From Planctomycetaceae bacterium (GTDB lineage: Bacteria > Planctomycetota > UBA1135 > GCA-002686595): 20,815 nucleotides of DNA. How positions within the stretch are numbered: position 1 is the stretch's first letter; each line of letters begins with the position of its first letter. The stretch is taken from contig JABWBL010000006.1 of the NCBI GenBank assembly GCA_013360535.1, positions 1 to 20,815 on the forward strand, read 5' to 3'. Position numbers and translations under genes: made by a program. Of this stretch, positions 3,655-19,752 are shown one piece after another. The notes beneath the pieces were generated by a model. The model did no database searches and was not told the DNA's origin. It was given only the letters and a program-made list of their open reading frames with translations.

Positions 3655-5892
3655 TCACCAGGGAAGTGGATGCTGGCGGACGAACAGGCCCATCGCCCCC
3701 GTGTCGGTCTTGAGGTCGAGGTCGAGGTGGGTCATCCCCCAGCCGGGCACGTCGACCCAGACGTGTTCCTGCAAGTAGCAGCGGGGTCCGGGAGTTCCCG
3801 GCAGGGTGAGGGGCAAGTCGCCAACGTGAACGAGGCCGCGGGCGTCGGGTGAGAACGTCGTGAGCGGAACGATGGCGCTGGCTTGTCCAGTGAGCGCGAG
3901 CGCCGCGTGGCCTTCGACGAGGACTCGCTCGGTTGCGCCGCCGGGGCGGAAAGCGAGCGGAGCCGCACCCACAGCTTCGAGCCGCAGGAGTCGCTCGAGG
4001 CGTTCGAGGTCGTACACGCCGACGTAGTTCTCGAAGGTGTTGGTGACGTAGGCGAAGTAGCTCAAGCGGCCCGGCTCGATCGTCGCCTTGCGACCGAACG
4101 CGACGCCGTGACAGCCGAGCCCGGCGGGGAACGTGTAGACACCCGTCGGTTGACCCGCGGCATCGAGCGGCACGATCGAGACGTTGAAGGACGCCTTGTT
4201 GCACACGACGAGGAAGCGCCGATGTCCATTGGCGTCCGGCGGACTCACGATCGCCTGGATTGGCATGTGGGCCCAGCGCACGGGTGTCGCCGTGACGTCG
4301 CTCAGGGCGAGATTGCCGGCCGCATTGCCCAATGGAGCCGCGACCGGAGTGCGGACGAGGCTCTCCGAGCCTGCGGTGGCGTCGATCGAGTACACGCTGA
4401 CGTCGTCGGAGCCGGCGTTGTTCGTGAAGCCCACGTACGCGGTCGACCCCGGTGAGCCCGTGTTGACGATGCCCGCGGCGAGGGGCGAGCGACCAGCCGT
4501 CGGGATGCGCGCGACCTCGGCGCCAACGCCCCAGCGCCCGTCGGGATCGGTCCAAGGACGTGAGATGGAGTAGAGCGACGCGCTCGCGCCGAGCGTGTTC
4601 GCGGTCATGAAGTGGTCGCCGTCGTCGAGGAACCACAGGCCGTGCGGGGAGAAGGCGGGCGCGCCGCCAGCACCGGAGCTCTGCCCGAGCGCGGGAACGT
4701 CGGGCCGGCCCCACTGGAGCGCGAGCAGCGGATCGAACTCCTGCACTCGGTTGTTCCCCATCACGGTCAGGAACCAGCGATCCGAGCCCGTCGTGGGGGA
4801 GGGATTGCGGGGCGCGGTCATCACGTGCGCCGTCGCAGCTCCCATCGGGATGTCGCCGATCACCTGTTTCGTGCTGGCATCCAGCACAGTGGCCGTGACG
4901 TCGTGCCAGTTCGAGAAGACCACGACGTCGCGCAGCAGGCCGTTCCAGTCCCGCGACTTGCCGCTCCAGCCATTGTGAGGGTTGTTGCCGACGTGCGGGA
5001 CGTGCGTGCGACTCCAGTCCTGAGCGTCGAACACGTCGACGGCTCCGTTGGGCGCGCCAGCGTACGCGAAGGTCTGCAGGCCCACCCACAGTTCGCCAAG
5101 GCCCTTCAGGCGCGGCGGGGGCAGCGGCAGCTTGCTCACGTGCGTCAGCCCCATCGGCATGTGTGCCGCCGTCACGATCTGCACCTGCATGTAGGGGTGC
5201 AGCGCGCAGTAGTAGCGCTGGTCGCCGTCGGCGAGGTCGGTCGCTTCGAGGTAGTAGTAGCCGACGTCCTGTCCGGGGATGTTGTTCGAGTAGCCGATGA
5301 AGCCCGTGTCGACGCCCAGCGCGGAGTTCGAGACGGTGTGCCATGTCTTGCCGCGGTTGTAGACCTTCACGTACTCGCCCGGCGAGAGAACGACGCGGCG
5401 AGTGTCCATGTCCATGTCGCGCGTATCGCTCCCGTCGTCGCGATACCAAGGAGCCTCGTCGAGGATCTCGAGCACGATCGCCCGGCCCTGTGGGACCGGC
5501 GGAGCCGGCACGCCGAGCTGCGGGTGCGCGGCGCCGACGGGCGGCGCGTAGACCAGCCACTGAACGAGCTGGTCGAGCTCGACGTCGCTGATCACCTCCA
5601 GCCCGAAGGCCGGCATGCGGAAGTCGAATCCGCCGACGAGGTAGGCCCCGTTGCGGACTTGCCAGCGAACATGTTCCTCGACGGCGGTTTGCGACGATGT
5701 GAGGCCATACGCGATCGGGGGTGCCCAGGATCCCGTGTCGGTCCAGCTCGGTCCGCCGCGGCCATCGGCGCCGTGGCAGGTCGCGCACGCGGCCGCGAAC
5801 AGCTTCGCCGGAGAACGTGGTGTCTGTGCGGTGGCCGTGACGGGAAGCAGGGCGAGCGCGATCAGGGCGATGCAGGTGCGCGTGGGCGACAT
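3655..5892 (-). CDS. Periplasmic multidomain redox protein: cytochrome c, type 1 copper (amicyanin-like) and beta-propeller
   Basis: A 745-residue exported protein. Residues 1-23 are a signal peptide (ending TATAQ). Residues 30-115 are a mono-haem cytochrome c domain with C36-A-T-C39-H40 and a likely Met ligand at M93 (FRMPAFG). Residues about 160-245 are a cupredoxin: H185 in GKTWHTV, then C229-A-L-H232-P-Y-M235. That C-x2-H-x2-M ligand loop is the amicyanin pattern for a type 1 copper site. Residues about 255-700 look like a beta-propeller of YVTN or NosZ/NirS style, with blade strands such as RWFLTVMGN, RRFLVVCNK and YFAYVTNTF. Several His residues fall in blades (SNWHDV, TAHVM, SPHGLWF, WAHMPI, GCHGVAFG). 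The start at 5892 has AGGAG seven bases upstream. An FNR-type box lies 88 bases upstream. The role is inferred to be periplasmic electron transfer or nitrogen-oxide chemistry; the reaction is unknown. Confidence 0.85.
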   Translation of the reverse strand: MSPTRTCIALIALALLPVTATAQTPRSPAKLFAAACATCHGADGRGGPSWTDTGSWAPPIAYGLTSSQTAVEEHVRWQVRNGAYLVGGFDFRMPAFGLEVISDVELDQLVQWLVYAPPVGAAHPQLGVPAPPVPQGRAIVLEILDEAPWYRDDGSDTRDMDMDTRRVVLSPGEYVKVYNRGKTWHTVSNSALGVDTGFIGYSNNIPGQDVGYYYLEATDLADGDQRYYCALHPYMQVQIVTAAHMPMGLTHVSKLPLPPPRLKGLGELWVGLQTFAYAGAPNGAVDVFDAQDWSRTHVPHVGNNPHNGWSGKSRDWNGLLRDVVVFSNWHDVTATVLDASTKQVIGDIPMGAATAHVMTAPRNPSPTTGSDRWFLTVMGNNRVQEFDPLLALQWGRPDVPALGQSSGAGGAPAFSPHGLWFLDDGDHFMTANTLGASASLYSISRPWTDPDGRWGVGAEVARIPTAGRSPLAAGIVNTGSPGSTAYVGFTNNAGSDDVSVYSIDATAGSESLVRTPVAAPLGNAAGNLALSDVTATPVRWAHMPIQAIVSPPDANGHRRFLVVCNKASFNVSIVPLDAAGQPTGVYTFPAGLGCHGVAFGRKATIEPGRLSYFAYVTNTFENYVGVYDLERLERLLRLEAVGAAPLAFRPGGATERVLVEGHAALALTGQASAIVPLTTFSPDARGLVHVGDLPLTLPGTPGPRCYLQEHVWVDVPGWGMTHLDLDLKTDTGAMGLFVRQHPLPW

Positions 5893-6004: not shown

Positions 6005-7849
6005 TCAGCGCCGGGGTGTCGTGGGGGTCGGTGTGGCGAGCAAATCGTCGACGATCGGGCCGTATCGCGCGTCGAGTTCGCTCGCTGCGCGCAAGTGCGG
6101 CAACGCCTCCGATGCACGTCCTTCGAGTAGGAGCCACGCACCACGGTTGAAGCGCGCCGCGGCGTGGAGCGGACCGAGCTCCGCGGCCCGTCGAAGGGGT
6201 TCTTCGGCCTCGGGAGCGCGCCCCATCCGCATCAGCAGGAAGCCGAGGTTGTTCTGAGCATCGACATCATCGGGGGCCAGCGCGACCGAGCGCTCGAAGG
6301 CCGCCAGCGCCTCCGCTTCCCGCCCGCTCGCGGCGAGCAGCACCCCGTGCTGGTAGTGCGCGATGGCGCTGTGGCTGAAGCGTGTCGCCAGCGCGTTTGC
6401 GAGCTCCAGTGCATCGGCGATGCGCCCGATTCCGGCGAGCTGCTCGATCCGGGCGAGACTCGAGGCGAACTCGGCCGGTGTCGGGAACTGCGGTTCGATC
6501 GCCTCCGCTCGCGTGAGCGCTGAAGCGAGCTCGACGCGCTCGCGCAGGTCCGCCGGTGGATCGACCGAGAGACGCTCCACGAACCTGTAGAGGCGGAGCG
6601 CCGATGAGGCGAGCCTCGCCGATCCGCCTCGCTCGTTGGTCGCCTGCGCCGACGCCAGTCTCGAGCCTGCGAGCAGCTCCGCAGCCCGCACGACCGCGTT
6701 CTCGCAGACAGCGAGCAGCAGGACGCTGCTCGCGACGACCCACACGCGACCGGCGCCCGTGACGCCGCGCTCATTCCGCAGTTCCCGGCCCAGCGCGCGC
6801 AGGCGCTTCCCGCGCAGGAAGCGAGTGGACTGGAACACCGCGAAGGCCAGCATCACGCTCACGATCACGGTCAGGAGCAGCGGCAGAACATCGAACAGGC
6901 CGCGCAACGAGAACACCCCGACGGACACGACGGCGAGAAGCAGCGCTTCCTCCCCCCAGCTCGCATCCCACTTGCGATCGAGGCCGTGCCAGACGGTCAG
7001 TCCCTTCAGCAACGGCGGACGAACGAACCCGAAGCGCACGCGCCCATCCGGACAGGCAGCGACGCAATCGAGGTCCCGCAGGCAGGCCGGGTCGACGACC
7101 GTGCCGAAACGCGTGAGCTCGAGGTGCACGCGGATGTGGCTCTGGCAGGCGGCCGTGCAAGCCCCGCAGTCGCTGCAGTCGCCGCGCGCGACGATGCGTC
7201 CGGGCGCGGCACGATCGGCGAGCGAGAACAGCGCACCGTAGGGGCAGGCATGGCTGCAGAAGGCGCGGGAGCCGAGCCAGAGCACGCTCGCGAAGCCGCA
7301 GGTCGCGAGCGTCGCGAGCGCGACTGGCCAGCTCGGCAGGTTGCGAGTGAAGTCATCCGTTAGGAACGAGGACCACGCCGTTCCGGCGGGACGTTGGTGA
7401 AGCTCGACGTCGAGCCCGAGCCACGCACGGTACGCGAGCGGCCAGACGAACATGTAGGCCGCGACGAGGAACGGAATCGCGAAGAGCACGCGCGAACGCA
7501 GCGGGCGCGGGCGGATCCCGACGCGCTCGAGCCAATGCGCGCACAGGTCCTGCAGCGCGAGGACATGGCAACCCCAGGAGCAGAAGAAGCGCCCGAACAC
7601 GGCGCTCGCCAGCACGAGTACGGCGAGCAGCACGAAACCGGCGGTGACGACACCTTCGGCCGCGGTGTAGACGGCCTCGTTCAGCTCGAGCGGCGCGAGG
7701 GTGCGGCCGACGAGCTTCCAGTGGACGTAGTGCGCCACCATCGCGAGGTGGACGGCGACGAGCGTCCAGGCGCGGCGCCGCGCGATCGTGGACGAGCCGC
7801 GCGGCCGTGTGGCCGATTCAAAGGAAGCGAGGGAGTCGGAGCCTTGCAC
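6005..7849 (-). CDS. NapH-like membrane polyferredoxin fused to C-terminal TPR repeats
   Basis: A 614-residue protein. Residues 25-345 form a NapH/CcoG/NosR-like membrane iron-sulfur protein: helices at about 27-45, 65-85, 120-140, 175-193, 300-340 and 368-388, with the signature pairs C90-SWG-C94 and C198-SHA-C202-P. Cytoplasmic clusters follow, C225-x2-C228-x2-C231-x3-C235 and C256-x2-D259-x2-C262-x3-C266-P. In the second, the expected second Cys is Asp. Residues about 430-610 are TPR repeats (for example AIAHYQHGVLLAASG and VDAQNNLGFLLMRMG). In known relatives, such proteins pass electrons between the quinol pool and periplasmic reductases; here the partner is inferred to be the neighbouring oxidoreductase system. 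The start is GTG, with GGAGG ten bases upstream, overlapping the moaA stop region. Six bases separate it from moaA, so the two are co-transcribed. Confidence 0.85.
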   Translation of the reverse strand: MQGSDSLASFESATRPRGSSTIARRRAWTLVAVHLAMVAHYVHWKLVGRTLAPLELNEAVYTAAEGVVTAGFVLLAVLVLASAVFGRFFCSWGCHVLALQDLCAHWLERVGIRPRPLRSRVLFAIPFLVAAYMFVWPLAYRAWLGLDVELHQRPAGTAWSSFLTDDFTRNLPSWPVALATLATCGFASVLWLGSRAFCSHACPYGALFSLADRAAPGRIVARGDCSDCGACTAACQSHIRVHLELTRFGTVVDPACLRDLDCVAACPDGRVRFGFVRPPLLKGLTVWHGLDRKWDASWGEEALLLAVVSVGVFSLRGLFDVLPLLLTVIVSVMLAFAVFQSTRFLRGKRLRALGRELRNERGVTGAGRVWVVASSVLLLAVCENAVVRAAELLAGSRLASAQATNERGGSARLASSALRLYRFVERLSVDPPADLRERVELASALTRAEAIEPQFPTPAEFASSLARIEQLAGIGRIADALELANALATRFSHSAIAHYQHGVLLAASGREAEALAAFERSVALAPDDVDAQNNLGFLLMRMGRAPEAEEPLRRAAELGPLHAAARFNRGAWLLLEGRASEALPHLRAASELDARYGPIVDDLLATPTPTTPRR

Positions 7850-7855
7850 GCGAGT

Positions 7856-8881
7856 TCAACCTCCGCGCGTGTGCATCTCGAGCCGCGGATCCTCGCGGAG
7901 CGCGCTCGAGTCGGCGTATGGTCCGCGCTCACGCTCGCCGAGCCGTTCTTCGGCCCCGCGCTCGCTTCGCACCTGCCAGGTCTTCGCGATGCGCCGCGCG
8001 AGCTCCTCGGTAGAGGCGCCCGCTCGCAGCAGGGCGCGCAGGTCGAGCCCGAGTCGAGCGTAGAGGCAGAGGTACCAGTGTCCGTCCGCCGTCAGGCGGC
8101 TGCGATCGCAGCGGGTGCAGAATGGCGCGGTCGTCGACGCCACGATCCCGAACACCGTGCCGTCGCCGAGGCGGAAGCGCTCCGCCGGTGCGGACGAGCG
8201 CTCGCGAACTTCCTCGATGGAGCCGTGGCGACGCTCGATCCGGCGCAGGATCTCGTCGCGCGAGACGACTTTCTCGGGCGTCCAGTGCGTCGCGCCGCCT
8301 ACATCCATGTACTCGATGAAGCGCGCTTCGATGCCGCGCTCGCGCGCGAACTCGAGCAGTGAGTCAACTTCCGCGTCGTTGACGTCCCGCAGGACGACGG
8401 TGTCGAGCTTCACGCGTCCGGGCCAGAGTCTGGCTGCGGCTGCGATGCCCGCGAGCACCTCGGGCAGTCCGCGACGACGGGCGATGCGCTCGAAGGTGCG
8501 CTCGTCGAGCGTGTCGAGGCTCACCGTGACGCGTTGCAGGCCCGCCAGCGCGAGCGCCTCGGCGTGTTCGGCCAGCAGCATCCCGTTGGTGGTCATGGCG
8601 ATGTCGCGCAGCGCCGGACGTCGCGCGAGCTGCTCGACCAGTCTCGGCAGCTCGCGACGCACGAGCGGCTCGCCACCCGTGATGCGCACCGCCTCCACTC
8701 CGAGCGAGCAGAACGCATCGACGAGCGTCGCGATCTCGCCGAAGTGCAGCAACCGCTCGCGTTCCAGCCAGCGATAGCCCTGCTCCGGCATGCAGTAGGC
8801 GCAGCGCAGGTTGCAGCGGTCGGTGACCGACACGCGCAGGCTGCGGAGCGGCCGGCCCAGGGCATCGTGCAACACATCCAT
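7856..8881 (-). CDS. moaA: GTP 3',8-cyclase MoaA, molybdenum cofactor biosynthesis
   Basis: A 341-residue radical-SAM enzyme that converts GTP to the cyclic intermediate on the way to molybdopterin, in the cytoplasm. Evidence: the N-terminal cluster motif C23-x3-C27-x2-C30 in VTDRCNLRCAYCMP, the RITGGEPLVRR segment, the MoaA-specific C-terminal cluster (FCTRC, then LCLY 13 residues on, inside the conserved SRLTADG context), and a C-terminal Gly-Gly. I chose the ATG at 8881 because the family normally begins about ten residues before GRPLRSLRVS. An upstream in-frame ATG at 8941 would overlap the palindromic operator at 8935-8948. The Shine-Dalgarno sequence is weak (GAGAG next to the ATG). The gene is divergent from the molybdoenzyme operon, which needs its product. 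The length is normal; the C-terminal tail is slightly longer and more charged than usual. Confidence 0.95.
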   Translation of the reverse strand: MDVLHDALGRPLRSLRVSVTDRCNLRCAYCMPEQGYRWLERERLLHFGEIATLVDAFCSLGVEAVRITGGEPLVRRELPRLVEQLARRPALRDIAMTTNGMLLAEHAEALALAGLQRVTVSLDTLDERTFERIARRRGLPEVLAGIAAAARLWPGRVKLDTVVLRDVNDAEVDSLLEFARERGIEARFIEYMDVGGATHWTPEKVVSRDEILRRIERRHGSIEEVRERSSAPAERFRLGDGTVFGIVASTTAPFCTRCDRSRLTADGHWYLCLYARLGLDLRALLRAGASTEELARRIAKTWQVRSERGAEERLGERERGPYADSSALREDPRLEMHTRGG

Positions 8882-8934
8882 CTCTCGCAGTATGGACGCG
8901 AGCGCCGCGTCGCGGCCGCAGAACCTCGACGCCC

Positions 8935-8948
8935 TTGACATCGGTCAA
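8935..8948. promoter_or_regulatory. Perfectly palindromic FNR/Dnr-type operator between moaA and the molybdoenzyme operon
   Basis: TTGAC-ATCG-GTCAA is a perfect palindrome in its five-base arms, within CCTTGAC...GTCAAGG. It lies 60 bases upstream (centre) of the moaA ATG on one side and 163 bases upstream of the cytochrome lipoprotein ATG on the other. It could therefore control both directions. A class II arrangement would start moaA transcription near 8900 and operon transcription near 8983. No good -10 hexamer is visible on either side. Confidence 0.75.
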
Positions 8949-9104: not shown

Positions 9105-10703
9105 ATGAACACACGTCACGTGTCGTGGAGCATCGGGCTGGCGGTGATGGCCGCTCTCGCGCTGGGTGCCTGCGAGCTCACAGGGCTCGCAGCGGACACG
9201 AGCCAGCCGGCAGCCACTTGCGCGAATCGCGGGCGCGGCCTGTACACGACCTACTGCGTCTCCTGCCACGGCGCTTCCGGACGCGGGGACGGGGCGGCCG
9301 CCTACCTGCTCTCCCCGGCGCCGCGCGACTTCGGCTCGGCGCGCTTCCGCATCGTCTCGACGGTGAATCAGGTTCCCACGGAAGCGGATCTCGTCGCGGT
9401 CCTGCGCCGCGGGATGCCAGGCTCGGCGATGCCGCCGTGGGAGTGGATGCCGGATTCGGACCTGCTGGCGCTCGCCGGCTACGTACGCGAACTGGCGATC
9501 ACTGGCCGGGCCGACGACCTGCAGAAACGCGCCGAGGCCGACGAGGAGACGCTCGAACGCGCCGAGGCGCTCGCGATCGCGACGCGCGCGCTGACGCCGG
9601 GCGATCCGATTCCCGTGCCGCCCGACTGCGCGGGAACTCCGGCCGAGCTTCAGGCGGGCCGGCGCTTCTTCGTCGAGAACTGCTCCAAGTGTCACGGCGC
9701 GGAAGGGACCGGCACGGCGGACTCGCCGCAGGTCAACGAGGATGGAACGCCCGCGTATCCGCGCGACTTCACGCGCGGAATCCTGAAAGGCGGTTCCTCG
9801 CACGCGGACATCGTGCGCCGCATCACTGCCGGCCTGCCCGGCAGCCCAATGCCGGCGACGGAGATCAAGGATCCCGTGCTTGCGGCATGCGTATCGGCCT
9901 ACGTGCGCAGCCTGATCCGCCCCGGCATGCAAGAGCGCGTCGCGCAGACGCGGCGCACGCTCGTCGCACAGCGTGCAGTCGGGACGCTGCCGCAGACCGT
10001 GCAGGATGCCGCGTGGTCGCAGGCGGCGGAGCAATGGGTGCCGCTCATGCCGCTGTGGGCGCGGGCGAACAGTGTCGAGGGTTGCACGATCCGCGCGCTG
10101 CATGACGGTTCGACGCTGGCGCTGCGCATCAGCTGGGAAGACCGCACGCAGAGCACCGAACTGCTCGCGCAGGACCTCTTCACCGATGCCGTCGCGCTGC
10201 AGTGGTCTCGAGGCGCGCAGCCGCCCCTGTTCACGATGGGCGAGCCGACGCGGCCCGTGAACATCTGGCAGTGGCGCGCGGGTTGGGAGCTCGATCTGGC
10301 CGGGGTGCGCGACGTGACTGCGCTCCACGCCGATACGCCCGACGACATGTACGGCCATGTCGACCCGCAAAGCGAGGCGCTGTACCTCACGGCACGCGCC
10401 GCGGGAAACCCGATGGCGGCAGCGACCCGGACGAGCGCGGGCGAGATGCTGAGCGCCACCGGTTTCGGCACGCTCGCGCCCATCGCCGGCGCCGACGCGA
10501 AGCTGACGGCGAAGGGCGTGTGGTCCAACGGCTTCTGGGACGTGGTGATGACGCGTCCGATGCAGGCCTGCTGTCCAGGCGAGCTCCCGCTCGCACCCGG
10601 TGACAGCGTGTTCCTCGGAGCGGCCGCGTGGGACGGCGACCAACGCGACCGCAACGGTCAGAAGTCCGTCTCCGTCTGGCATGTGCTCCGCATCGCGGAC
10701 TGA
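9105..10703 (+). CDS. Lipoprotein di-haem cytochrome c fused to type II DMSO-reductase gamma (haem b) domain
   Basis: A 532-residue protein. Residues 1-23 form a lipoprotein signal ending in the lipobox LGAC23, so the protein is probably anchored facing the periplasm. Two cytochrome c domains follow: C51-VS-C54-H55 with M109 (SAMP), and C193-SK-C196-H197 with M249 (SPMP). Residues about 300-532 match the haem-binding gamma subunit of ethylbenzene dehydrogenase, chlorate reductase and nitrite oxidoreductase: [52 protein letters not shown]379 and K520 sit where EbdC-type proteins bind haem b by Met and Lys. It would carry electrons between the Fe-S subunit and the periplasmic cytochrome pool. 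AGAAGGAG lies six bases before the ATG. An in-frame ATG at 8985 exists but would bury the lipoprotein signal. It is the first gene of the operon, 14 bases before the catalytic subunit. It is the equivalent of NxrC. Confidence 0.9.
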
Positions 10704-10717
10704 ACGAGCAAGCCACC

Positions 10718-13700
10718 ATGAACACCAACCGTCGCGACTTCCTCTCGTTCTTCGCCGTCGGCTCCGTACTCGGCGCCGCCAGTGCCGCCAGTCCCGAAGG
10801 CTGGCTGTGGCCGTTCGCCTCGGGCGACGTTCCCAATCCGCTGGCGGCCTACCCCACGCGCGACTGGGAGAAGGTCTACCGCGACCAGTACGCCTACGAC
10901 TCGAGCTTCACCTGGGTCTGTTCGCCGAACGACACGCACGCCTGCCGCGTGAAGGCCTACGTGCGCAACGGCGTGATCGTGCGCATGGGTTCCGACTACA
11001 CGTACCAGAACTACGCGGACCTCTACGGCAACAAGGCGACCCCGAACTGGAACCCGCGGCAGTGCGCGAAGGGCTACACGTTCCATCGCGTGGTGTATGC
11101 GCCGTACCGCATCAAGTACCCGATGGTGCGTGCGGGTTGGAGGCGTTGGGCGGACGATGGCTATCCGTACCTCGACGACGAGGCGCGCAAGAAGTACCGC
11201 TTCTACGAGCGAGGGCAGGACGAGCTCGTGCGCGTGACATGGGCCGAGGCGTTCCGGTACGTCGCCGGCGCCTACGTCGCGATTGCGAAGCACTATTCCG
11301 GCGACAAGGGCGCGAGACGCCTTGCGGAGCAGGGCTACGAGCCCGAGATGATCGCGGAAATGAAGGGCGCGGGAACGCGCTGCCTCAAGTTCCGCGGCGG
11401 CATGGGCCTGCTCGGCGTGCTCGGCAAGTACGGCGCGTATCGCCTCGCGAACTCGATGGCGCTGCTCGACGTGCACGTGCGAGGCGTCGACGAGCACCAC
11501 GCGCTCGCGGGACGCCAGTGGTCGAACTACACGTGGCACGGCGATCAGGCGCCCGGCCACCCGTGGGTACACGGCCTGCAGGCCTCGGAGTGCGACTTCA
11601 ACGACCTGCGCTCGTCCAAGCTGATCATCATGGACGGCAAGAACCTGGTCGAGAACAAGATGACCGACTCGCATTGGTTCATCGAGTGCATGGAGCGCGG
11701 CGCGAAGCTCGTCGTGATCGCTCCCGAGTACGGTGCGCCTTCGTCGAAGGCCGACGTGCACGTGCCGATCCGTCCCACGACGGACGCGGCGCTGTTCCTC
11801 GGCATCACTCGACTGATGATGGAGCGCGGCTGGTACGACCGCGACTTCGTGCTCGGCTACACGGACTTCCCGCTGCTCGTGCGCACGGACACGGGCAAGC
11901 GCCTGCGCGCGGCGGAGGTGTTCGCTAACCATGCGTCGAGCCTTGCGGCCGATGGACCGAGCCGGAAGCTGCAGGGCCTGACCGCGGAGCAGCACGAGAA
12001 ACTCGGCGACTTCGTGGTCTGGAACGAGGCGACCGACTCGCTCGCCGCCGTCACGCGCGACGACGTCGGCCGCAAGCTGGCCGCGCGCGGAGTTCGGCCG
12101 GCGCTCGACAGGATCGTGAAGGTCCGTCTGGTCGACGGCCAGGAGATCGAATGCCGCACGCTGTGGTCGATGTACGTCGTGCACCTCGCCGACTATGACC
12201 TCGACACGGTCCACGCGATCACGCACACGCCCAAGGCGCTGATCGAGGAACTTGCGAAGGACATCGCCACGTTCAAGCCCGTCTCGATCCATCAGGGCGA
12301 GGGCATCAATCACTGGTTCCACGCGACGGAAATGAACCGCGCGGCATACCTGCCGCTGATGCTCACCGGCAACATCGGGCGCCGCGGGGCGGGTTGCCAC
12401 ACGTGGGCGGGCAACTACAAGGCCGCGCTGTTCCAGGGCTCGCCGTGGACGGGAGCGGGCTTCAAGGGCTGGGTCAATGAGGATCCGTTCCACCCCAACC
12501 TCGACCCGAACGCGCACGGCAAGGACGTCATCGCCCACGGCTACACGAAGGACGAGGAGCCGGCCTACTGGAACCACGGCGATCGCCCGCTGATCGTCGA
12601 GACGCCCAAGCACGGGCGCGTGTGCCTCACCGGCGAGACGCACATGCCCACGCCTACGAAGGCGCTGTACTTCTGCAACGTCAACCTCTTCAACAACGCG
12701 AAGCACGCCTACGCGATGCTGAAGAACACCAACCCGCGCATCGACATGATCGTCACCGCGGAGATCCAGATGACCGCGAGCGTCGAGTACGCGGACGTCG
12801 TCCTGCCCGCGAATTCGTGGGTCGAATTCGAGGATCTCGAGGTCACGGCCTCGTGCTCGAACCCGTTCCTGCAGGTCTGGAAGGGCGGCATCAAGCCGCT
12901 CTACGAGAGCAAGGATGACCTGACCATCCTCGCGGGCATCGCCAAGGAACTCGGCGTCCAGACCGGCGACCGGCGCTTCCACGACTACTTCAAGTTCGAG
13001 CACGAGGGCAAGCGCTCGATCTACCTGCAACGCCTGCTCGACACGAGCACGACGACGTCCGGCTACAAGGTCGAGGACATCCTCGCCGGCAAGTACGGCG
13101 CGCCGGGCGGGGCCCTGATGATGTTCCGCACTTACCCGCGTATCCCGTTCTGGGAACAGGTGCACGACGACGAGCCGTTCTTCACCGACACGGGGCGCAT
13201 GAACGCTTACGCCGACATCGACGAGGCGCTCGCCTGCGGCGAGAACTTCATCGTGCACCGCGAGGGCACCGAGGCGACGCCTTACCTTCCCAACGTGATC
13301 GTGAGCACGAACCCGTGGGTGCGACCGGAGGACTACGGGCTGCCGCTCGACTGCGAGCACTGGGACGAACGCACGATCCGCAACGTCAAGCTGCCCTGGT
13401 CCGAGGTCAAGGGAACGCGGAACTTCCTGTGGGAGAAGGGCTTCCAATTCTTGCTGCTCACCCCGAAGACGCGCCACCGAGTGCACTCGCAGTGGAGCTC
13501 GGTCGAGTGGCACGCGATGTACGACTCCAACTTCGGCGCCCCGTGGCGCATCGACAAGCGCTCGCCCGGCGTCGGCGAGCACCAGATGCACATCAACCCC
13601 GGCGCCGCGCGCGATCTGGGCATCGCCGACGGCGACTACGTCTGGGTCGACGCGAACCCGGCCGACCGTCCGTACTACGGCGCGGACCCCAAGGACCCGT

Positions 13701-14164
13701 TCTACAAGGTCGCGCGCTGCATGGTGCGAGCCATGTACAACCCGGCCTATCCCTACAACATCGTGATGATGAAGCACGCTCCCTACATCTCGACGGAGCG
13801 CAGCGTGAGGGCGCACGAGTCGCGGCCCGACGGTCGAGCGCTCAGCGCGGACACCGGCTATCAGGCCAATTTCCGCTACGGCTCGCACCAGAGCCTGACG
13901 CGCAACTGGCACATGCCGATGCACCAGACCGACAGCTTGTTCCACAAGGCCAAGGCGGCCACACGCTTCATCTTCGGCGGCGAGGCGGACAACCACGCGA
14001 TCAACACCGTGCCGAAGGAGACGCTCGTGCGCGTCACGAAGGCCGAGGACGGCGGCCTCGGAGGCGTAGGCGTGTGGAAGGTCGCCACGCTGGGCTACAC
14101 GCCCGGCGCGGAGAACGAGGCGATGAAGCGCTACATCGCGGGCCAGTTCATGGACATCGAGTGA
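10718..14164 (+). CDS. nxrA: Molybdopterin catalytic subunit, NxrA / archaeal-type NarG-like, Tat-exported
   Basis: A 1148-residue catalytic subunit of a type II DMSO-reductase-family enzyme. It starts with a Tat signal (N4-RRDFLSFF, then a hydrophobic stretch), so the complex folds in the cytoplasm and works outside it. The FS0 cluster region reads C68-x3-D72-x3-C76-x39-C116. The probable Mo-ligand Asp is D276 in Y271-T-W-H-G-D276-Q-A-P-G-H-P, aligning with the YxWxxDxxP region of NarG. Other matches include [17 protein letters not shown] and, near the C-terminus, [19 protein letters not shown]. Its length, export signal and closeness to the NxrB-like partner place it with periplasmic NxrA of Nitrospira and anammox bacteria and with archaeal-type nitrate reductases, not E. 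coli NarG. Direction and substrate (nitrite oxidation, nitrate reduction, or another oxyanion) remain open. There is no strong Shine-Dalgarno sequence; translation is probably coupled to the gene before. Confidence 0.85.
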
Positions 14165-14174
14165 GGAAGCTCCC

Positions 14175-14489
14175 ATGCCCAAGCTTGAACCTGACGCCAC
14201 CGATCCGATGGAGCTCGCCGGTGTGGCCTTCGACGATCCCACGGGCCAGAGCGTGCGCGTGATGGCCGAGTGCTTCGCCGACGAGTTCCTGCGCCTTGGA
14301 CACAGCGTGTCCGAGGTGATGGAGCTCTTCCGCGGCAGCGAGCATCGCCTCGCGCACCATGCGTGGGAACGACTGGGCGACATCGCGGTCTTCGCCATGG
14401 TGCAGGAGCTGCGCAGTCGCAACGACCGGATTCGCGAGTGCTTCCTGCGCTCGCGCAAGGCGCGCGGGATCGAGATCACGGAGAGCTAG
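14175..14489 (+). CDS. Small protein of unknown function between the catalytic and Fe-S subunits
   Basis: A 104-residue, acidic, apparently all-helical soluble protein with no signal peptide and no metal-binding motif. It starts ten bases after the catalytic subunit stop, with GAGGAAG seven bases upstream of the ATG, and ends five bases before the Fe-S subunit, so it is clearly part of the operon. Recognisable patches are DPMELAGVAFDDP (residues 10-23), MAECFADEFLRLGHS, ELFRGSEHRLAHHAWERLGD and VQELRSRN. I have an impression of similar DPxELxGV...FxxE small proteins beside molybdoenzyme genes in other bacteria, but I cannot name a family. Assembly, maturation or regulation are possible roles. 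No function is claimed. Confidence 0.85.
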   Translation: MPKLEPDATDPMELAGVAFDDPTGQSVRVMAECFADEFLRLGHSVSEVMELFRGSEHRLAHHAWERLGDIAVFAMVQELRSRNDRIRECFLRSRKARGIEITES

Positions 14490-14494
14490 AGCCA

Positions 14495-15778
14495 ATGGCA
14501 ACGGTCTACAACTGGCAGCTGGGACGCGAGATGGACTACCCCTACGAAGGGGCCTGGCCGGAGCGGCAGTTCGCGTTCGTCATCAACACCAATCGCTGCC
14601 TGGGCTGCCAGACCTGCACGATGGCGTGCAAGTCGACCTGGACCTTCGCGCAGGGTCAGGAGCACATGTGGTGGACCAACGTCGAGACCAAGCCCTACGG
14701 CGGCTACCCGCGCAACTGGGACGTCAAGCTGCTCGAGCTCCTGAACAAGGCCAATCCCGAGGGCGTGCGGTGGTTCGCGCCGGACGGCAGCGCGCCCGAA
14801 GACGCTCCCTACGGCGAGTTCGAGGGGCGCACCATCTTCGAGGCCGCCCAAGACCGCAGCGCGCGACCGGAGGCCTCGCAGCGTGTACTCGGTTACCTGC
14901 CGAGCGACGAGGAGTGGGGCACCCCCAACCTGTACGAGGACGTGCCGTCCGGTGGCGGCGGCGAGCGCGGTGAGTGGGTCCGCGAGGGCTCGGACGTCTC
15001 GCTTCCCACGCACAGGTCGTGGTTCTTCTACCTCGCGCGGCTGTGCAACCACTGCACGTACCCCGCCTGCCTCGCAGCCTGCCCGCGCACCGCGATCTAC
15101 AAACGGCCCGAGGACGGCATCGTGTTGATCGACCAGGAGCGCTGCCGCGGCTACCGCAAGTGCGTCGAGGCATGTCCGTACAAGAAGGCGCTGTATCGGC
15201 CGACGACCCGCACGAGCGAGAAGTGCATCGGCTGCTATCCGCGCGTCGAGGGTCGCGACCGCGACACGAAGGGCGCGCGCACGGAAACGCGCTGCATGTC
15301 GGCCTGCATCGGGCAAGTGCGCATGCAGGGCCTCGTGCGGACCGAGCAGGACGGTATCTGGACGCCCGATCGCCAGCACCCGCTGTACTACCTCGTCCAC
15401 GTCGCGAAGGTCGCGCTGCCGCTCTATCCGCAGTTCGGCACGGAGCCCAACGGCTACTACATCCCGCCGCGGTGGGTGCCCAAGCCCTACCTCGAGCAGA
15501 TGTTCGGCCCCGGTGTCGAGCACGCCATCCAGCAGTACCTCGCGCCCGGTCGCGAGCTGCTCGCCGTGCTGCAGCTCTTCCGCCGCGACAGCCGCATGAT
15601 CTTCCGCTACGACATCGAGGAAGGCCCCTTGGTGTACGAAGGCGAGATCCATGGCCAGCCTTTCCAGCTCCACGACGACACGGTGATCGCGTTCGGCGAG
15701 AAGGGCGAGGAGCTCTTCCGCACGACCGTCGAGGAGCCGCTGCACATTCGTCCCTCCGAACGCATCAACTGGGTCTAG
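14495..15778 (+). CDS. nxrB: Iron-sulfur subunit, NxrB-like
   Basis: A 427-residue electron-transfer subunit with four Fe-S cluster motifs: C35-x2-C38-x2-C41-x3-C45; C184-x2-C187-x4-C192-x3-C196; C217-x5-C223-x3-C227, where Tyr220 replaces a Cys (NarH has Trp), so probably a [3Fe-4S] cluster; and C244-x2-C247 with C267-x3-C271. Hallmarks of NxrB are very clear from memory of the family: VYNWQLG at the start, CLGCQTCTMACKSTW, HMWWTNVETKPYGGYP, RPEDGIVLIDQERCRGY, ALPLYPQFGTEPNGYY and a final IRPSERINWV. The length is close to the Nitrospira subunit. It has no signal peptide; it is expected to be carried out with the Tat-exported partner. It passes electrons from Mo/FS0 to the haem-b subunit. 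GGAGAG lies nine bases before the ATG, overlapping the preceding stop. This is the strongest evidence for the enzyme type. Confidence 0.93.
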   Translation: MATVYNWQLGREMDYPYEGAWPERQFAFVINTNRCLGCQTCTMACKSTWTFAQGQEHMWWTNVETKPYGGYPRNWDVKLLELLNKANPEGVRWFAPDGSAPEDAPYGEFEGRTIFEAAQDRSARPEASQRVLGYLPSDEEWGTPNLYEDVPSGGGGERGEWVREGSDVSLPTHRSWFFYLARLCNHCTYPACLAACPRTAIYKRPEDGIVLIDQERCRGYRKCVEACPYKKALYRPTTRTSEKCIGCYPRVEGRDRDTKGARTETRCMSACIGQVRMQGLVRTEQDGIWTPDRQHPLYYLVHVAKVALPLYPQFGTEPNGYYIPPRWVPKPYLEQMFGPGVEHAIQQYLAPGRELLAVLQLFRRDSRMIFRYDIEEGPLVYEGEIHGQPFQLHDDTVIAFGEKGEELFRTTVEEPLHIRPSERINWV

Positions 15779-15780
15779 CC

Positions 15781-16545
15781 ATGGACACCCTCACCCGTTC
15801 TCCGGCCGATCTCGCCCTGGCGCGCGCCGTCGTGCATCGATTCCTGAGCGATGCCATCCGCCACCCCGGGCGCTCGATGCTCGTCGGGTCCGACTGGAGT
15901 CAGGCGTTGCGGACTGCGCTCGAGGAATGTGACGCACCCGAGCTAGTCCCGCTCGCCGAGGCGTGCGTGGCCGCCGGAAGCGATCGCCGCTCGACCGAGT
16001 TCGCCTACGGACGCCTCATCGGCCACACTCCGCGCGCCGGCATCCCGCCTTACGAGTCGGAGTGGCTCGGGGCCGCCGGTGACCTGCTGCAGTACCACCA
16101 GATCGCGGATCTCTCGGGCTTCTACGGCGCTTTCGGCCTGCGCCTCAACGACACTTGCGACGAACGCGCGGACCACATCGGGATCGAGCTCGCCTTCGCG
16201 CAGTTCCTGTGCGCCAAGGAGGCCTGGGCGGTGCAGCACGACGAGCCCGAGCTGGCGAGCGTCTGTCGCGACGCGCAGCGCCGCTTCGTGGCCGAGCATC
16301 TCGCGCGCTGGGCGCCGGCCTTCTTCCACCGCATCGGAGCCTGCGCCGACGGCGGGTTCCACGCTGCGCTCGCGCGACTCGCATGCGGCTGGATCGAGAA
16401 CGAGTGTCGGCGGCTGGAGGTTCCCTGCGGCGACCCGACGCTCGCACCGGGCGAGTCCTCGGTGACGCTCGAGGACACCTGCATCTCCTGCGCGCACGCC
16501 TCGAGTTGCGTGCCCGGCGGTACTCCACGTCCCGAGCCGAACTGA
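15781..16545 (+). CDS. TorD/NarJ-family molybdoenzyme assembly chaperone with Cys-rich tail
   Basis: A 254-residue cytoplasmic all-helical protein of the TorD/DmsD/NarJ type, which binds the Tat signal of the catalytic subunit and holds it for cofactor insertion before export. Evidence: the hallmark region PPYESEW (residues 89-95), followed by DLSGFYGAFGLRLN, DHIGIELAFAQFLCAKE, and W-x-PAFFHRIGA. It begins two bases after the Fe-S subunit stop, with no separate Shine-Dalgarno sequence, so translation is probably coupled. The C-terminal tail adds C-x2-C-x6-C (DTCISCAHASSC) near residues 230-243, not something I expect in the core fold and possibly a metal or Fe-S site. It is the counterpart of NarJ, ClrD or DdhD in related operons. 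Confidence 0.85.
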   Translation: MDTLTRSPADLALARAVVHRFLSDAIRHPGRSMLVGSDWSQALRTALEECDAPELVPLAEACVAAGSDRRSTEFAYGRLIGHTPRAGIPPYESEWLGAAGDLLQYHQIADLSGFYGAFGLRLNDTCDERADHIGIELAFAQFLCAKEAWAVQHDEPELASVCRDAQRRFVAEHLARWAPAFFHRIGACADGGFHAALARLACGWIENECRRLEVPCGDPTLAPGESSVTLEDTCISCAHASSCVPGGTPRPEPN

Positions 16546-16562
16546 CGCCCGCGGAGGCCGAC

Positions 16563-17213
16563 ATGACCCGCATCGAGATCGCCCCGGAACTCGTCGAGGA
16601 GGCTGTCTTCCTCCTTCAGCGCGACGCCGAGCGACGCGGCGACCTGCGCGCGACACGCTGGCTGGAACAGCGCGAGCCGCTCTACGAGCTTCGCGACCCC
16701 CGTGAACGAGAGGCGGCCTTTCTCGCCCACGCCCTGCTCGCCTTCCGGACGCTGCACCTCGATGAACCGCTCAGCGTGGCCCTCGATGCCTGCCCGGCCG
16801 CTCGCGAGCGCCTCGACGTGCTCGCAGTGCGGAGAGCGCGACGCACCAAGGAAGAGGGCGCGGAACTCTACAGCTCCGCGACCTCGGCGCGTGCTGCGTC
16901 CCCGACCCGCGCCGTGCTCGCGCTGAAACCCGATCGCTTCGCGGATCTCGAACGCCTGCACGAGCACGTGCGCCGCGAGCTGCTCTTCATCGACGACATG
17001 CTCGAACCCTCGTTCGAATACGACCCGTGCGCGATCGACGGGCTCGACCTCGATCCCGGCACGCGCGACGTCGTGCGCGACCGCGCGAGTCGCGCTTGGC
17101 GCAGGCGCGTCGAGGCGCGCGCCCGTGGCGAACGGACTTCCGGCACCTTCGCCGAGCTCGTCCGCGGTGCCGTCGCGTCGCTGGGCACCGTTGGCGCGAC
17201 GCTGGAGAGCTGA
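16563..17213 (+). CDS. Unknown operon protein with an ELLFIDDMLEPSFEY segment
   Basis: A 216-residue soluble protein, rich in Arg, Glu and Ala, without signal peptide or membrane helix. GGAGG at 16553-16557 lies five bases before the ATG at 16563, 17 bases after the chaperone gene. I do not recognise a named family. Residues 118-150 (LKPDRFADLERL, then RRELLFIDDMLEPSFEYDP) resemble a pattern I associate with LRHELxHxxDMLDPxFGY-type bacterial proteins, which would carry an HExxH-like helix. Here the two histidines would be R and F, so it would be non-catalytic if related. Its position between a molybdoenzyme chaperone and a dehydrogenase suggests a role in maturation or regulation of the enzyme, which is inference from context only. 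Confidence 0.8.
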   Translation: MTRIEIAPELVEEAVFLLQRDAERRGDLRATRWLEQREPLYELRDPREREAAFLAHALLAFRTLHLDEPLSVALDACPAARERLDVLAVRRARRTKEEGAELYSSATSARAASPTRAVLALKPDRFADLERLHEHVRRELLFIDDMLEPSFEYDPCAIDGLDLDPGTRDVVRDRASRAWRRRVEARARGERTSGTFAELVRGAVASLGTVGATLES

Positions 17214-17218
17214 TCACG

Positions 17219-18289
17219 ATGCGAGTCGAAGCGTGGAGCCTGCGGGCCCCGCGGGCGTCGTTCGTGTCACTCGCGCGGGAGGAAGCGGCGGGACCTGGCG
17301 AGGTGCTCGTGCGTGTCGCCGGTTGTGCGGTCCAACCGGAGGACGTCGCGATCTACCACGGCAAGTCGAGCTCGTCGACCAGACTCCCGCTCACACTGGG
17401 TGCCGAGATCTCGGGGCAGGTCGTCGAGACCGGCGCTGGCGCCGAATGCTGGGGTGGCCAGAGCGTCGTGATTCCGGCGTCGCTGCCCTGCCATCGTTGT
17501 TCCGCCTGCGAGGCCGGACGCGGCCAGCTGTGCGCGGCGGCGCTGCGGCCCGGCCGCAACATCCACGGTGGGTTCGCCTCGCACGTTCGAGTTCCAGCGC
17601 GCAGCCTGTGCCGCGTGCCATGGCTCGGAGATCGTTGGAAGGGCGCGGCCCCGCTCGAGCTCGCGCACCTCGCGCTGCTCTCGGACTCGTTCGCCACGCC
17701 TTATCAGGCGCTTGCTCGCGGTGGGCTGGTGCAGGGGGATGTCGCGGTGTTCGTCGGCATGGGGCTCGGCGCCATCGCGGGCATCCAGCTCGCCGTCGCG
17801 CGTGGTGCGCAGGTCGTGGCGATCGACACCGACCCGCGGGGGCTCGAGCTCGCGCAGGAACTCGGTGCGGCGCTCACGCTGCCGGAGTCCCAAGGCGCGG
17901 GGGAGCCCGCGTCCGCGCGAATCGAGGCCTTCGCAGCCGGGTTCGGCTGCCCGACCTGGCGCATTCGGCTGTTCGAGACCTCGTCGTCCGATTGGGGTGC
18001 GAAGCTTGCGCTCAGCTTGCTCGGGCGTGGACAGACGCTCGTGTTCGTCGGTCGGCGAGCCCGCCACACCGGGGCCGTCCTGCCCGAGCTCGCCGCGCTC
18101 GATGCGGTCCTCGCCGGCAGTGTGGGCTGCGCTCCGGAACTCTATCCGGCGCTGCTGCGGCTCGTGCTCACCGGGCAGGTGCGGGTTGCGCCCTTTGCGC
18201 GAATCCTCCCGATGGATGCGCTGCGCGGCACGCTCGAGACCGCCGATCCGCAAGCTCACATGCGGCGCGCCGTCCTCGTGCCGAAGTAG
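17219..18289 (+). CDS. MDR-family (zinc-type) dehydrogenase lacking a catalytic-zinc histidine
   Basis: A 356-residue medium-chain dehydrogenase/reductase. The structural zinc lobe is intact, C91-x2-C94-x2-C97-x7-C105, in a context (VVIPASLPCHRCSAC, RNIHGGFASHVRVPARSLC) that closely recalls 6-hydroxycyclohex-1-ene-1-carbonyl-CoA dehydrogenase (Had). The nucleotide fold is present: ATPYQALARGGL, then VFVGMGLGAIAG and the acidic VVAIDTD that favours NAD. The catalytic zinc site is altered: C36 is kept, but the usual GHE reads G61-A62-E63, losing the His ligand. It may therefore work without catalytic zinc or on an unusual substrate. GGAGAG precedes the ATG at 17219, five bases after the previous stop; it is the last gene of the operon. 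Why it sits with a respiratory molybdoenzyme is unknown. It converges with the hemerythrin gene six bases away. Confidence 0.88.
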   Translation: MRVEAWSLRAPRASFVSLAREEAAGPGEVLVRVAGCAVQPEDVAIYHGKSSSSTRLPLTLGAEISGQVVETGAGAECWGGQSVVIPASLPCHRCSACEAGRGQLCAAALRPGRNIHGGFASHVRVPARSLCRVPWLGDRWKGAAPLELAHLALLSDSFATPYQALARGGLVQGDVAVFVGMGLGAIAGIQLAVARGAQVVAIDTDPRGLELAQELGAALTLPESQGAGEPASARIEAFAAGFGCPTWRIRLFETSSSDWGAKLALSLLGRGQTLVFVGRRARHTGAVLPELAALDAVLAGSVGCAPELYPALLRLVLTGQVRVAPFARILPMDALRGTLETADPQAHMRRAVLVPK

Positions 18290-18295
18290 TTCGCC

Positions 18296-18892
18296 TCAGG
18301 GGCACCACAGGCCGCAGGAGTGCGAGCGCGGTGCCTGGGAACGGGCCGCGCCATGCGGCACGCCGAGGTCGGCGGCGAGCCTGTCCGCCATGTCGACGAG
18401 GGTCTCGCGCACGCCTTCGCCGAGCAGCTCGCGATCCGCGCTCGCGAAGCCTTCCTCCAGCGCACGGCGGTCGTCGTCGCCGAAGCGCTCTTCTCCCATA
18501 GGGAACAGCACGCCGTCTTCCTTGCCGATGTGATCGCGCAGGATCTCGACGTAGGAGCCGGCCGCCGCGGCGAATCCCGGCGCATCTTGCTTGAGGAGCG
18601 CCGTGCGCATGCGCGCCATCTCCGCGCGCCCGAGGTCGTGCTCGTTCAGCATCACCGCGATCGGTCCCACATTGTCCGGAATCCCGCAGCGGTGCATCGC
18701 GGGGAAGAGCAGCTTCTCTTCCTTGCCATGGTGAAGCCGGTCCGCGAACTCGGCCAGGAAACGCAGCGCCCGGTGCGCACGCTCCAGATCGAGTGCCCCG
18801 CTGGTGGCGCTCAGGTGCGTCAGCTTGTCCAGGCAGTCGAGCACCTGTTCGATCAGGCGATGGTCGGCCGAGAGTCTTTCGGTGGGGCGCAT
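18296..18892 (-). CDS. Hemerythrin HHE-domain protein
   Basis: A 198-residue cytoplasmic protein with the di-iron hemerythrin fold. Visible ligands: H11 (ADHRLIE), H54/H55 with E58/E59 (RLHHGKEEKLLFP), H85 (NEHDLGR), and H121 with E125 (RDHIGKEDGVLFP). Both H-x3-E helices are intact. Such proteins bind O2 or NO or help repair iron-sulfur clusters under nitrosative stress (YtfE/RIC-like, but without its N-terminal ScdA domain). The C-terminal 30 residues are basic with two late cysteines (CGLWC). The start at 18892 has GGAGA six bases upstream. An FNR-type box is centred 73 bases upstream, and this region separates it from the Crp/FNR gene on the same strand. An NO-handling role is inferred from the regulator and neighbours. 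Confidence 0.9.
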   Translation of the reverse strand: MRPTERLSADHRLIEQVLDCLDKLTHLSATSGALDLERAHRALRFLAEFADRLHHGKEEKLLFPAMHRCGIPDNVGPIAVMLNEHDLGRAEMARMRTALLKQDAPGFAAAAGSYVEILRDHIGKEDGVLFPMGEERFGDDDRRALEEGFASADRELLGEGVRETLVDMADRLAADLGVPHGAARSQAPRSHSCGLWCP

Positions 18893-18958: not shown

Positions 18959-18972
18959 TTGACCGGAATCAA
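18959..18972 (-). promoter_or_regulatory. FNR/Dnr-type operator upstream of the hemerythrin gene
   Basis: TTGAC-CGGA-ATCAA, flanked by CC and GC. It overlaps the last codons and stop of the Crp/FNR-family gene, and its centre lies 73 bases upstream of the hemerythrin ATG. A box at -41.5 would give a transcription start near 18924 and a leader of about 31 bases. The arms match those of the other two boxes in the window. Confidence 0.7.
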
Positions 18973-19688
18973 GCCGGGTCGTCTTCGAGCCGGTCGGCGA
19001 TCCGCACCAGGATCCGCGGCTCGAGGACGACGATCGAGCGCGTCCGGTTCTCGATCACACCCGTGTCCTGCCAGCGCCGCAGGAGGCGCGAGAGCGTCTC
19101 CGGCGTGATCGCGAGGTGGGCCGCGAGGTCCTTCTTCGTCATCGGCAAGTCGATCTCGGGATGCGAGCCCTCCGCGCGCGTGGGCAGCGCAAGCAGGTAG
19201 TGGGCGAGCCGCGCGGGGGCGCTGGCGATTGAGAGTTCCTCGACGCGTTCGGCGAGCCGCATCAGCCACATGCACAACGATCCCACCATCGCCGTCGCGA
19301 CCCCCGGTTCGTCGCGCAGCAGCGAGATGAAGGCCTGCCCGCCGATCTCGAGCACCGTCGAAGGCGCGACGGCGCGCGCGTTGGCCGGGTAACGCCCGAT
19401 CGAGAGCAGCGCAGCTTCCGCGAACGTCTGGCCGTCGTGAAGGTGGTGCAGCACCTGCTCGTGACCGTCGGCGGCGATGCGGTACACGCGGATCCTTCCA
19501 CGGACGACCGCAAAGAACGAAGTGGCCGTCTGTCCCTCCGCGATGAGCGCCTGTTCCGCCTCGAGCTCGCGCACGGTGGTCCCCTGCGCAATGCGCTCCA
19601 CCAACGGACGCCCCAGAGGCCGGAAGTGGGGCAGCTTGGTCAGGAAACGCTGTCGTTCCGCGAGGTCCATTGACAGTGAGTCAAACAT
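18969..19688 (-). CDS. Crp/FNR-family transcription regulator, Dnr/NnrR-like
   Basis: A 239-residue regulator. Residues about 20-130 form a cyclic-nucleotide-type effector domain (LIAEGQTATSFFAVVRGRIRVY, then DGQTFAEAALL and PANARAVAPSTVLEI). A dimer helix follows, then a winged helix with MTKKDLAAHLAITPETLSRLLRRWQ. The recognition helix has E197, S200 and R201, the E-x2-S-R pattern with which FNR reads TTGA half-sites. There is no N-terminal cysteine cluster, and only one Cys (C139) in the protein, so it is not an oxygen-sensing Fe-S FNR. It is more like Dnr/NnrR regulators that sense NO through haem. It probably acts on the TTGAC-N4-RTCAA boxes found nearby. The start is uncertain: the ATG at 19688 (GGAG upstream) or the ATG at 19670, after a palindrome. 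Confidence 0.92.
   Translation of the reverse strand: MFDSLSMDLAERQRFLTKLPHFRPLGRPLVERIAQGTTVRELEAEQALIAEGQTATSFFAVVRGRIRVYRIAADGHEQVLHHLHDGQTFAEAALLSIGRYPANARAVAPSTVLEIGGQAFISLLRDEPGVATAMVGSLCMWLMRLAERVEELSIASAPARLAHYLLALPTRAEGSHPEIDLPMTKKDLAAHLAITPETLSRLLRRWQDTGVIENRTRSIVVLEPRILVRIADRLEDDPA
19670..19684. promoter_or_regulatory. Palindrome TTGAC-N5-GTCAA at the regulator / hemH divergence
   Basis: The arms TTGAC and GTCAA match those of the operators at 8935 and elsewhere, but the spacer is five bases, not four, which puts the half-sites out of the usual register. It overlaps the first codons of the regulator if the ATG at 19688 is used, or lies just upstream of the ATG at 19670. It could be an autoregulatory site or chance. 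Confidence 0.35.
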
Positions 19689-19752
19689 GACCACCGCGCT
19701 CCTGCAACGCCGCAGGTCCGCTCGCCGCCTCGGCTCGGTATCGTCTGCGCCC

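Follow-up and report, generated by a model that had tools for sequence, protein, structure and literature searches.

Which enzyme is encoded by an operon on a contig from a Planctomycetaceae bacterium (JABWBL010000006.1; the 20,815 nucleotides analysed are called the window here), and in which direction would it work? The operon spans positions 9105–17213 and all of its genes lie on the plus strand. It encodes the gamma subunit NxrC (9105–10703, 532 aa), the catalytic subunit NxrA (10718–14164, 1148 aa), which carries a molybdenum bis(molybdopterin guanine dinucleotide) cofactor (Mo-bisMGD), a conserved 104-aa protein between nxrA and nxrB (14175–14489), the Fe-S subunit NxrB (14495–15778, 427 aa), a TorD-like chaperone (NxrD, 15781–16545) and an accessory protein resembling kustd1701 of Kuenenia (16563–17213). 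From their sequences these products very probably form an enzyme of the NXR family, which interconverts nitrite and nitrate in the periplasm. An earlier note on this DNA had proposed an NxrCAB operon of NXR type, and the three subunits indeed sit at 9105–10703, 10718–14164 and 14495–15778 on the plus strand as it had stated, but the operon is longer and also includes the 104-aa reading frame, torD and the gene at 16563–17213; the assignment to the NXR type is backed by sequence, ligands and tree. In 80 related loci, kept from a total of 315, tblastn found nxrC in 79, the 104-aa gene in 69, nxrB in 78, torD in 70 and the kustd1701-like gene in 58, counting a gene anywhere within a locus, many of which are broken off at contig ends. 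NXR in non-anammox planctomycetes has already been reported (PMC10732223, in its accessible part) and the operon adds one member to an already known kind of enzyme; the parts worth following are the clade to which it belongs and the nesting of Candidatus Anammoxibacter within it.

NxrA matches NxrA of Kuenenia stuttgartiensis (PDB 7b04_B, also 1148 aa) with 1679.7 bits over residues 4–1147, which excludes a chance similarity, and the two are 59.4% identical over 956 residues compared, whereas PcrA (203 bits), EbdA (158 bits) and NarG (113 bits) are much weaker matches. Its start shows a twin-arginine motif with RR at positions 5–6, as judged by reading the motif without a signal predictor, so that the twin-arginine translocation (Tat) signal and the NxrA-like length and motifs of the earlier note are both found again. 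The structural study of the Kuenenia enzyme names Asp275, Asn70, Cys67 and Asp71 (PMC8387239), and our alignment places Asp276, Asn71, Cys68 and Asp72 in the same columns, with Cys76 also being kept. The molybdenum ligand Asp, the substrate Asn and the three Cys and one Asp of the FS0 cluster are all present, the fourth Cys being read by eye. Among 104 aligned NxrA rows the FS0 Asp is found in 98, while four have Cys (Halobaculum, Alisedimentitalea, ClrA and NarG) and two have a gap. Respiratory NarGHI was rejected, as the narG model, which has a cut-off of 1084.15 bits, scored 143.9 and the gamma subunit is of the EB_dh and not of the NarI type. Likewise, the models for type II dimethyl sulfoxide (DMSO) reductases stayed far below their cut-offs for NxrA (TIGR03479 with 356.4 against 984.75 bits, ebdA with 174.7 against 2000 bits), and identities of the ethylbenzene, perchlorate and Nar type were rejected on scores and ligands.

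The other two subunits agree with this assignment. NxrB matches its Kuenenia counterpart (7b04_A) with 571.7 bits and 246 of 403 aligned residues identical (61%), all 15 cluster-ligating cysteines are common to both, and the motifs quoted in the earlier note (LIDQERCRGY, GTEPNGYY and others) are present and align with Kuenenia NxrB. NxrC consists of an EB_dh haem-b domain (84.1 bits, also expected by that note) fused to a dihaem cytochrome c (Cytochrom_C in Pfam) with CxxCH motifs at 51 and 193; it matches 7b04_C with 105.4 bits and the cytochrome 6h5l_B with 103.1 bits. Counted along the alignment to 7b04_C, Met378 and Lys520 correspond to the haem-b ligands Met155 and Lys305 named for Kuenenia (PMC8387239), and a looser pattern at the Lys is found in 73 of 73 NxrC rows. 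Two CxxCH motifs occur in 70 of the 72 homologues that could be read from 79 NxrC hits, and one motif in the other two. A lipobox-like LGAC was seen by eye in NxrC of the window, but just 16 of the 72 homologues show a loose lipobox pattern, and lipid anchoring is therefore no common feature of the subunit. The Kuenenia subunit is described with a single b-type haem (PMC8387239), and NxrC of the window thus differs from it by two extra c haems; the NxrC frame in the Kuenenia-like locus of our collection was read in part. The alt_NxrC of Nitrospina, as described in the accessible part of PMC3578206, also combines a haem-b domain with one to three c-type haem sites; the nxrABC operons of Nitrospina differ in having a separate NxrC.

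Locus L155 was taken as Kuenenia because its NxrA and 7b04_B agree in all of 956 residues (100% identity). It shares with the window the catalytic, Fe-S and haem-b architecture of the Kuenenia NXR (kustd1700/1703/1704, PDB 7b04), the tested ligands, TorD and a kustd1701-type neighbour (labelled w9), but its gene order is C-B-TorD-w9-A instead of C-A-104aa-B-TorD-w9, and a search at E<=1e-3 detected no 104-aa gene in it. Its w9, located upstream of nxrA, contains an HExxH motif, is 27% identical to the kustd1701-like protein of the window and, judged by its position, would be kustd1701 itself. The window's protein has RELLF in place of HExxH and lacks a zinc ribbon, in contrast to many relatives: HExxH is found in 29 and CPxC in 36 of the 55 relatives (out of 59 hits) covered by our motif reading, and HExxH again in nine of 12 further relatives. 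As far as the available text of PMC6423088 goes, kustd1701 is listed as an unknown protein without a value in the protein table, and its transcript drops together with that of nxrA under nitric oxide feeding. The accessible part of PMC3578206 mentions a putative zinc-finger protein, perhaps this one, in a cluster common to Kuenenia, Nitrospira and Nitrospina, and our guess is that the kustd1701-like family acts as an NXR maturation factor. The gene product at 16563–17213 had no match in Pfam or NCBIfam. In the 104-aa protein D10, P11, M30, E37, F52 and G68 are invariant across 43 rows (motifs were read in 70 of its 71 hits), and its best Pfam match in the window is TYW2_N_2 with 24.5 bits, below the cut-off of 27.7. 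Pfam gave no family name for either family, as the scattered matches came from single members and none was common to more than four. The TorD-like chaperone is above the cut-off for PF02613 (73.8 bits) and below that for TIGR03482 (72.0 against 152.3 bits).

To place NxrA among its relatives, three trees were reconstructed: a first one with 74 of 104 proteins (near-duplicates, fragments and the haloarchaeal locus L130, 30 in all, being omitted), a second one with 65 hand-chosen proteins and a careful one under LG+C20 with 35 rows hand-chosen to span the groups. The references were Kuenenia and other anammox rows, with no rows from Nitrospira or Nitrospina. In the careful tree the window falls into a clade of 18 rows (support 100/100) and, within it, into a set of eight rows together with Anammoxibacter (100/99). 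The Kuenenia-type rows (family f49) and those of f96 group elsewhere (100/99), and the f78 rows branch deeper. As genomes of f49, f96 and f78 all contain HZS alpha (77–102 bits), anammox NxrA occupies three places in the tree. A grouping of f49 and f96 with Anammoxibacter was rejected by approximately unbiased (AU) tests with p-AU of 3.0e-58 for the careful and 1.4e-86 for the larger quick tree, for groups picked after a tree had been inspected. Each of the two Anammoxibacter genomes has one NxrA match at E<=1e-30, and both lie inside the clade of the window (L042 and L083, 71.5 and 69.5% identical to the window's NxrA). Unlike the window's bacterium, their hosts are anammox bacteria with strong HZS alpha matches (97.5 and 96.3 bits) and no match to COX1. 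Congruence of anammox NXR and genome trees is reported in the accessible part of PMC10467342, and the position of Anammoxibacter NxrA within a group of non-anammox bacteria is at odds with this. Two open-licence papers treating NxrA trees or counts (PMC10839748, PMC8141241) and one presenting a new nitrite-oxidising phylum (PMC11009272) do not describe the window's clade in their available parts.

The earlier note had called this enzyme type in Planctomycetota best known from the anammox Brocadiales; that it is mainly a feature of theirs is not borne out. From 392 evenly drawn planctomycete genomes, 83 match NxrA at E<=1e-200, a number that includes anammox families and a distant clade at 41–44% identity, and PMC10732223 reports the genes from non-anammox planctomycetes. 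These metagenome-assembled genomes (MAGs) agree with the window in enzyme type and phylum, and the direction of the enzyme is undecided there as well; they are other genomes, and in its accessible part that paper describes neither the accessory genes nor the clade of the window. A RefSeq-based NXR-A tree contains just two non-anammox Planctomycetota species according to the available text of PMC12758564. Full-length or nearly full-length NxrA is encoded in 18 of the 101 genomes listed (nine at >=70% identity, six at 55–57% and three at 41–43%) and in two of the seven genomes of the genus. The 80 kept relatives are 68–100% identical, and their bins bear the names of Planctomycetota, Verrucomicrobia, Omnitrophota, Acidobacteria, Rokubacteria, Latescibacterota and further groups, names that can be wrong for bins; none of these 80 loci is titled Nitrospira or Nitrospina. 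A second NxrA-like protein with 43% identity is present in the sister species (L129), and matches at 41–44% recur across Planctomycetota. Natronococcus occultus has a 38% identical NxrA-like match on its plasmid 2 (L130), with no annotated gene at the match itself and with annotated genes for Fe-S and TorD proteins next to it; gene annotation in PLSDB is incomplete.

As to the host, the window belongs to a MAG of 4.05 Mb in 728 contigs (G000, 78% complete), has a GC content of 69%, and its genus mate G001 (92% complete) has gene coordinates equal to those of JADYYP01, Planctomycetota SJ533. No HZS alpha match was found in G000, G001 or a third genome, G049; matches of 34–58 bits occur in four relatives (G057, G063, G071 and G072). 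An anammox host was rejected as neither G000 nor G001 has such a match, which agrees with the planctomycete, not evidently anammox, that had been expected. In G007, a genome of the same family, nine HZS_alpha matches lie on six contigs and reach 113 bits, above the 89 bits of a Kuenenia-like genome (G198), so that the family does include HZS-like proteins; such homologues are said to be without key residues in the accessible part of PMC12758564. The fragmented and incomplete MAG could raise the suspicion that the operon was wrongly binned or assembled and is foreign to the planctomycete, as could a tract at about 10400–12200 that is 99–100% identical to SJ533, against 70–78% at 9200–10000. We consider this most improbable, as the same gene order is found in another species of the genus on a 105-kb contig and in a further genome of the family on a 484-kb contig, there with an 88% identical NxrA. 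In the comparison with locus L026, this tract of 99–100% DNA identity between two species has flanks at 70–97%; it reflects either recent recombination or an assembly collapse, and the synonymous divergence (dS) from SJ533 is 0.095 for nxrA but 0.60 for nxrC. The ratios of nonsynonymous to synonymous substitution (dN/dS) are 0.02 for nxrA and 0.03 for nxrB against the sister species SJ533, and 0.10 and 0.09 against the more distant L027, values that would be expected of working genes. Those for L027 are independent of the identical tract and not touched by the caution that applies to SJ533. It is equally hard to believe that the enzyme acts on another substrate of type II DMSO reductases, that is perchlorate, chlorate, selenate, ethylbenzene or dimethyl sulfide. 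The EB_dh domain of NxrC is found in several such enzymes and the three subunits score best in NCBIfam with TIGR03477–79, but below the cut-offs of these models; PcrA and EbdA are far weaker matches than Kuenenia NxrA, and ClrA shows Gly in place of Asn71, Cys in place of Asp72 and Ala in place of Asp276, in an alignment that is unsure for so distant a row.

While subunits, ligands, export motif, operon, host group and oxidase-type genes can be read from the DNA, nitrite or nitrate as substrate is suggested by analogy to the Kuenenia enzyme outside and to Anammoxibacter inside the clade, and the direction is a guess that is not readable from sequence. We slightly favour nitrite oxidation as an auxiliary energy source over nitrate reduction, and consider neither or both to be rather improbable. 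Mo-bisMGD of NxrA would interconvert nitrite and nitrate in the periplasm, and electrons could pass from FS0 through the NxrB clusters to the Met/Lys haem b of NxrC, then over its two c-type haems to a carrier in the periplasm, which would deliver them to a cytochrome oxidase of the aa3-like or cbb3-like type, the haem order and the carrier being presumed. Members of the COX1 family were found in G000 with 490 (aa3-like), 230 (cbb3-like), 208 (an 800-aa open frame, NOR-like) and a weak 36 bits and in G001 with 492, 241 and 204 bits, with subtype names that are our reading of score, length and sequence without a subtype model. Alternatively, and with a lower but still considerable probability, the enzyme would serve mainly to reduce nitrate in the periplasm during respiration at low oxygen, supplied by quinol via cytochrome c or the NapH-like protein encoded upstream. 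Kuenenia NXR works in both directions, and its Vmax for nitrate reduction with methyl viologen exceeds that for nitrite oxidation with ferricyanide (PMC8387239). Several observations weigh against the explanation favoured here: the accessible part of PMC10732223 puts the nitrate reducers Thermogutta and Methanoperedens into the broad NXR cluster, so that membership does not fix the direction; NOR-like and Fnr-like genes, the latter next to a hemerythrin gene in the window, fit low-oxygen life, as does a 390-aa frame in G000 matching PF02239 (cytochrome d1) above its cut-off with 40.5 bits summed over pieces, which may be NirS-like or another propeller protein (G001 has one match of 21.9 bits, below the cut-off); no RuBisCO match was found in G000 or G001, in a carbon-fixation search that covered RuBisCO alone; full-length nxrA occurs in two of the seven genomes of the genus; and the strict MG-x4-PVN pattern at the haem-b Met occurs in 21 of 73 NxrC rows. 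G000 encodes a separate NapA above both NapA cut-offs, which speaks against nitrate reduction by the NXR, but this argument is weakened by the lack of NapA in the more complete G001, where the NXR could be the nitrate reductase. TIGR01706 (NapA) is above its cut-off in three of 14 genomes (G000, G049 and one Anammoxibacter), and three more reach 460–658 bits in the main piece. Nitrate reduction is further opposed by the absence of a NirK match and of NosZ above its cut-off (about 30 against 625 bits) in G000 and G001, and of a membrane quinol-oxidising subunit among the operon products scanned. The anoxic nitrate respiration towards which the earlier note had leaned may or may not apply: the PF02239 frame of G000 would fit it, and the absence of a NirK match and of NosZ above its cut-off, the oxidase-like genes and the NapA of G000, which G001 does not share, would fit it less well.

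Virtually all nitrate in nature is made by NXR according to the available text of PMC8387239, and the set of NXR-bearing organisms is still being drawn. If the clade oxidises nitrite, nitrification models overlook a guild spread across many groups, and should it reduce nitrate, nitrite oxidisers are miscounted wherever such genes serve as their markers. A tentative and rather doubtful picture would be that the window's NXR is part of a large clade, separate from the known nitrite oxidisers, which was exchanged with an anammox lineage, so that anammox NXR had more than one origin. The planctomycetes and the other uncultured bacteria that carry this clade would then make up a guild so far overlooked, gaining additional energy from nitrite oxidation by means of an NxrC with a built-in cytochrome c wire and of a maturation factor of the kustd1701 type. 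The nesting of Anammoxibacter is testable with public sequences.

The Rfam search of the window gave no match, and a scan for promoters and terminators found 0 and 4 compared with 0.4 and 3.0 in shuffled sequences, which is no clear excess. Divergent from nxrC lies moaA for molybdopterin biosynthesis (7856–8941, minus strand; TIGR02666, 352 bits, above the cut-off), followed on the same strand by the gene for a NapH-like membrane Fe-S protein fused to tetratricopeptide repeats (6005–7849; Fer4_5 and TPR in Pfam). Relatives of the latter are strong (340–421 bits) in five of the 80 nxr loci and weak (46 bits) in two more, and it is a candidate redox partner. The protein encoded at 3655–5892 (minus strand) combines a cytochrome c (Cytochrome_CBB3, 50.9 bits) with a cupredoxin-like motif (CALHPYM) and a repeat region, the likely type-1 copper motif and propeller being read by eye; it has a relative in one of the 80 loci (L026) and is a candidate electron carrier. 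Its identity as NosZ was rejected, as it matches no NCBIfam family and in Pfam cytochrome c only, and the sole TIGR04246 match of the genome is short and far below the cut-off. Downstream of the operon a zinc alcohol dehydrogenase is encoded at 17216–18289 (best model 6-hydroxycyclohex-1-ene-1-carbonyl-CoA dehydrogenase, 268.5 bits, below the cut-off of 338.65), and on the minus strand a Crp/Fnr-type regulator (18969–19781; cNMP_binding and HTH_Crp_2) and the hemerythrin (18296–18892; PF01814, 74.7 bits), which is matched in 16 of the 80 loci. In six of the loci a hemerythrin match is located between nxrA and nxrB, whereas that of the window lies further downstream.

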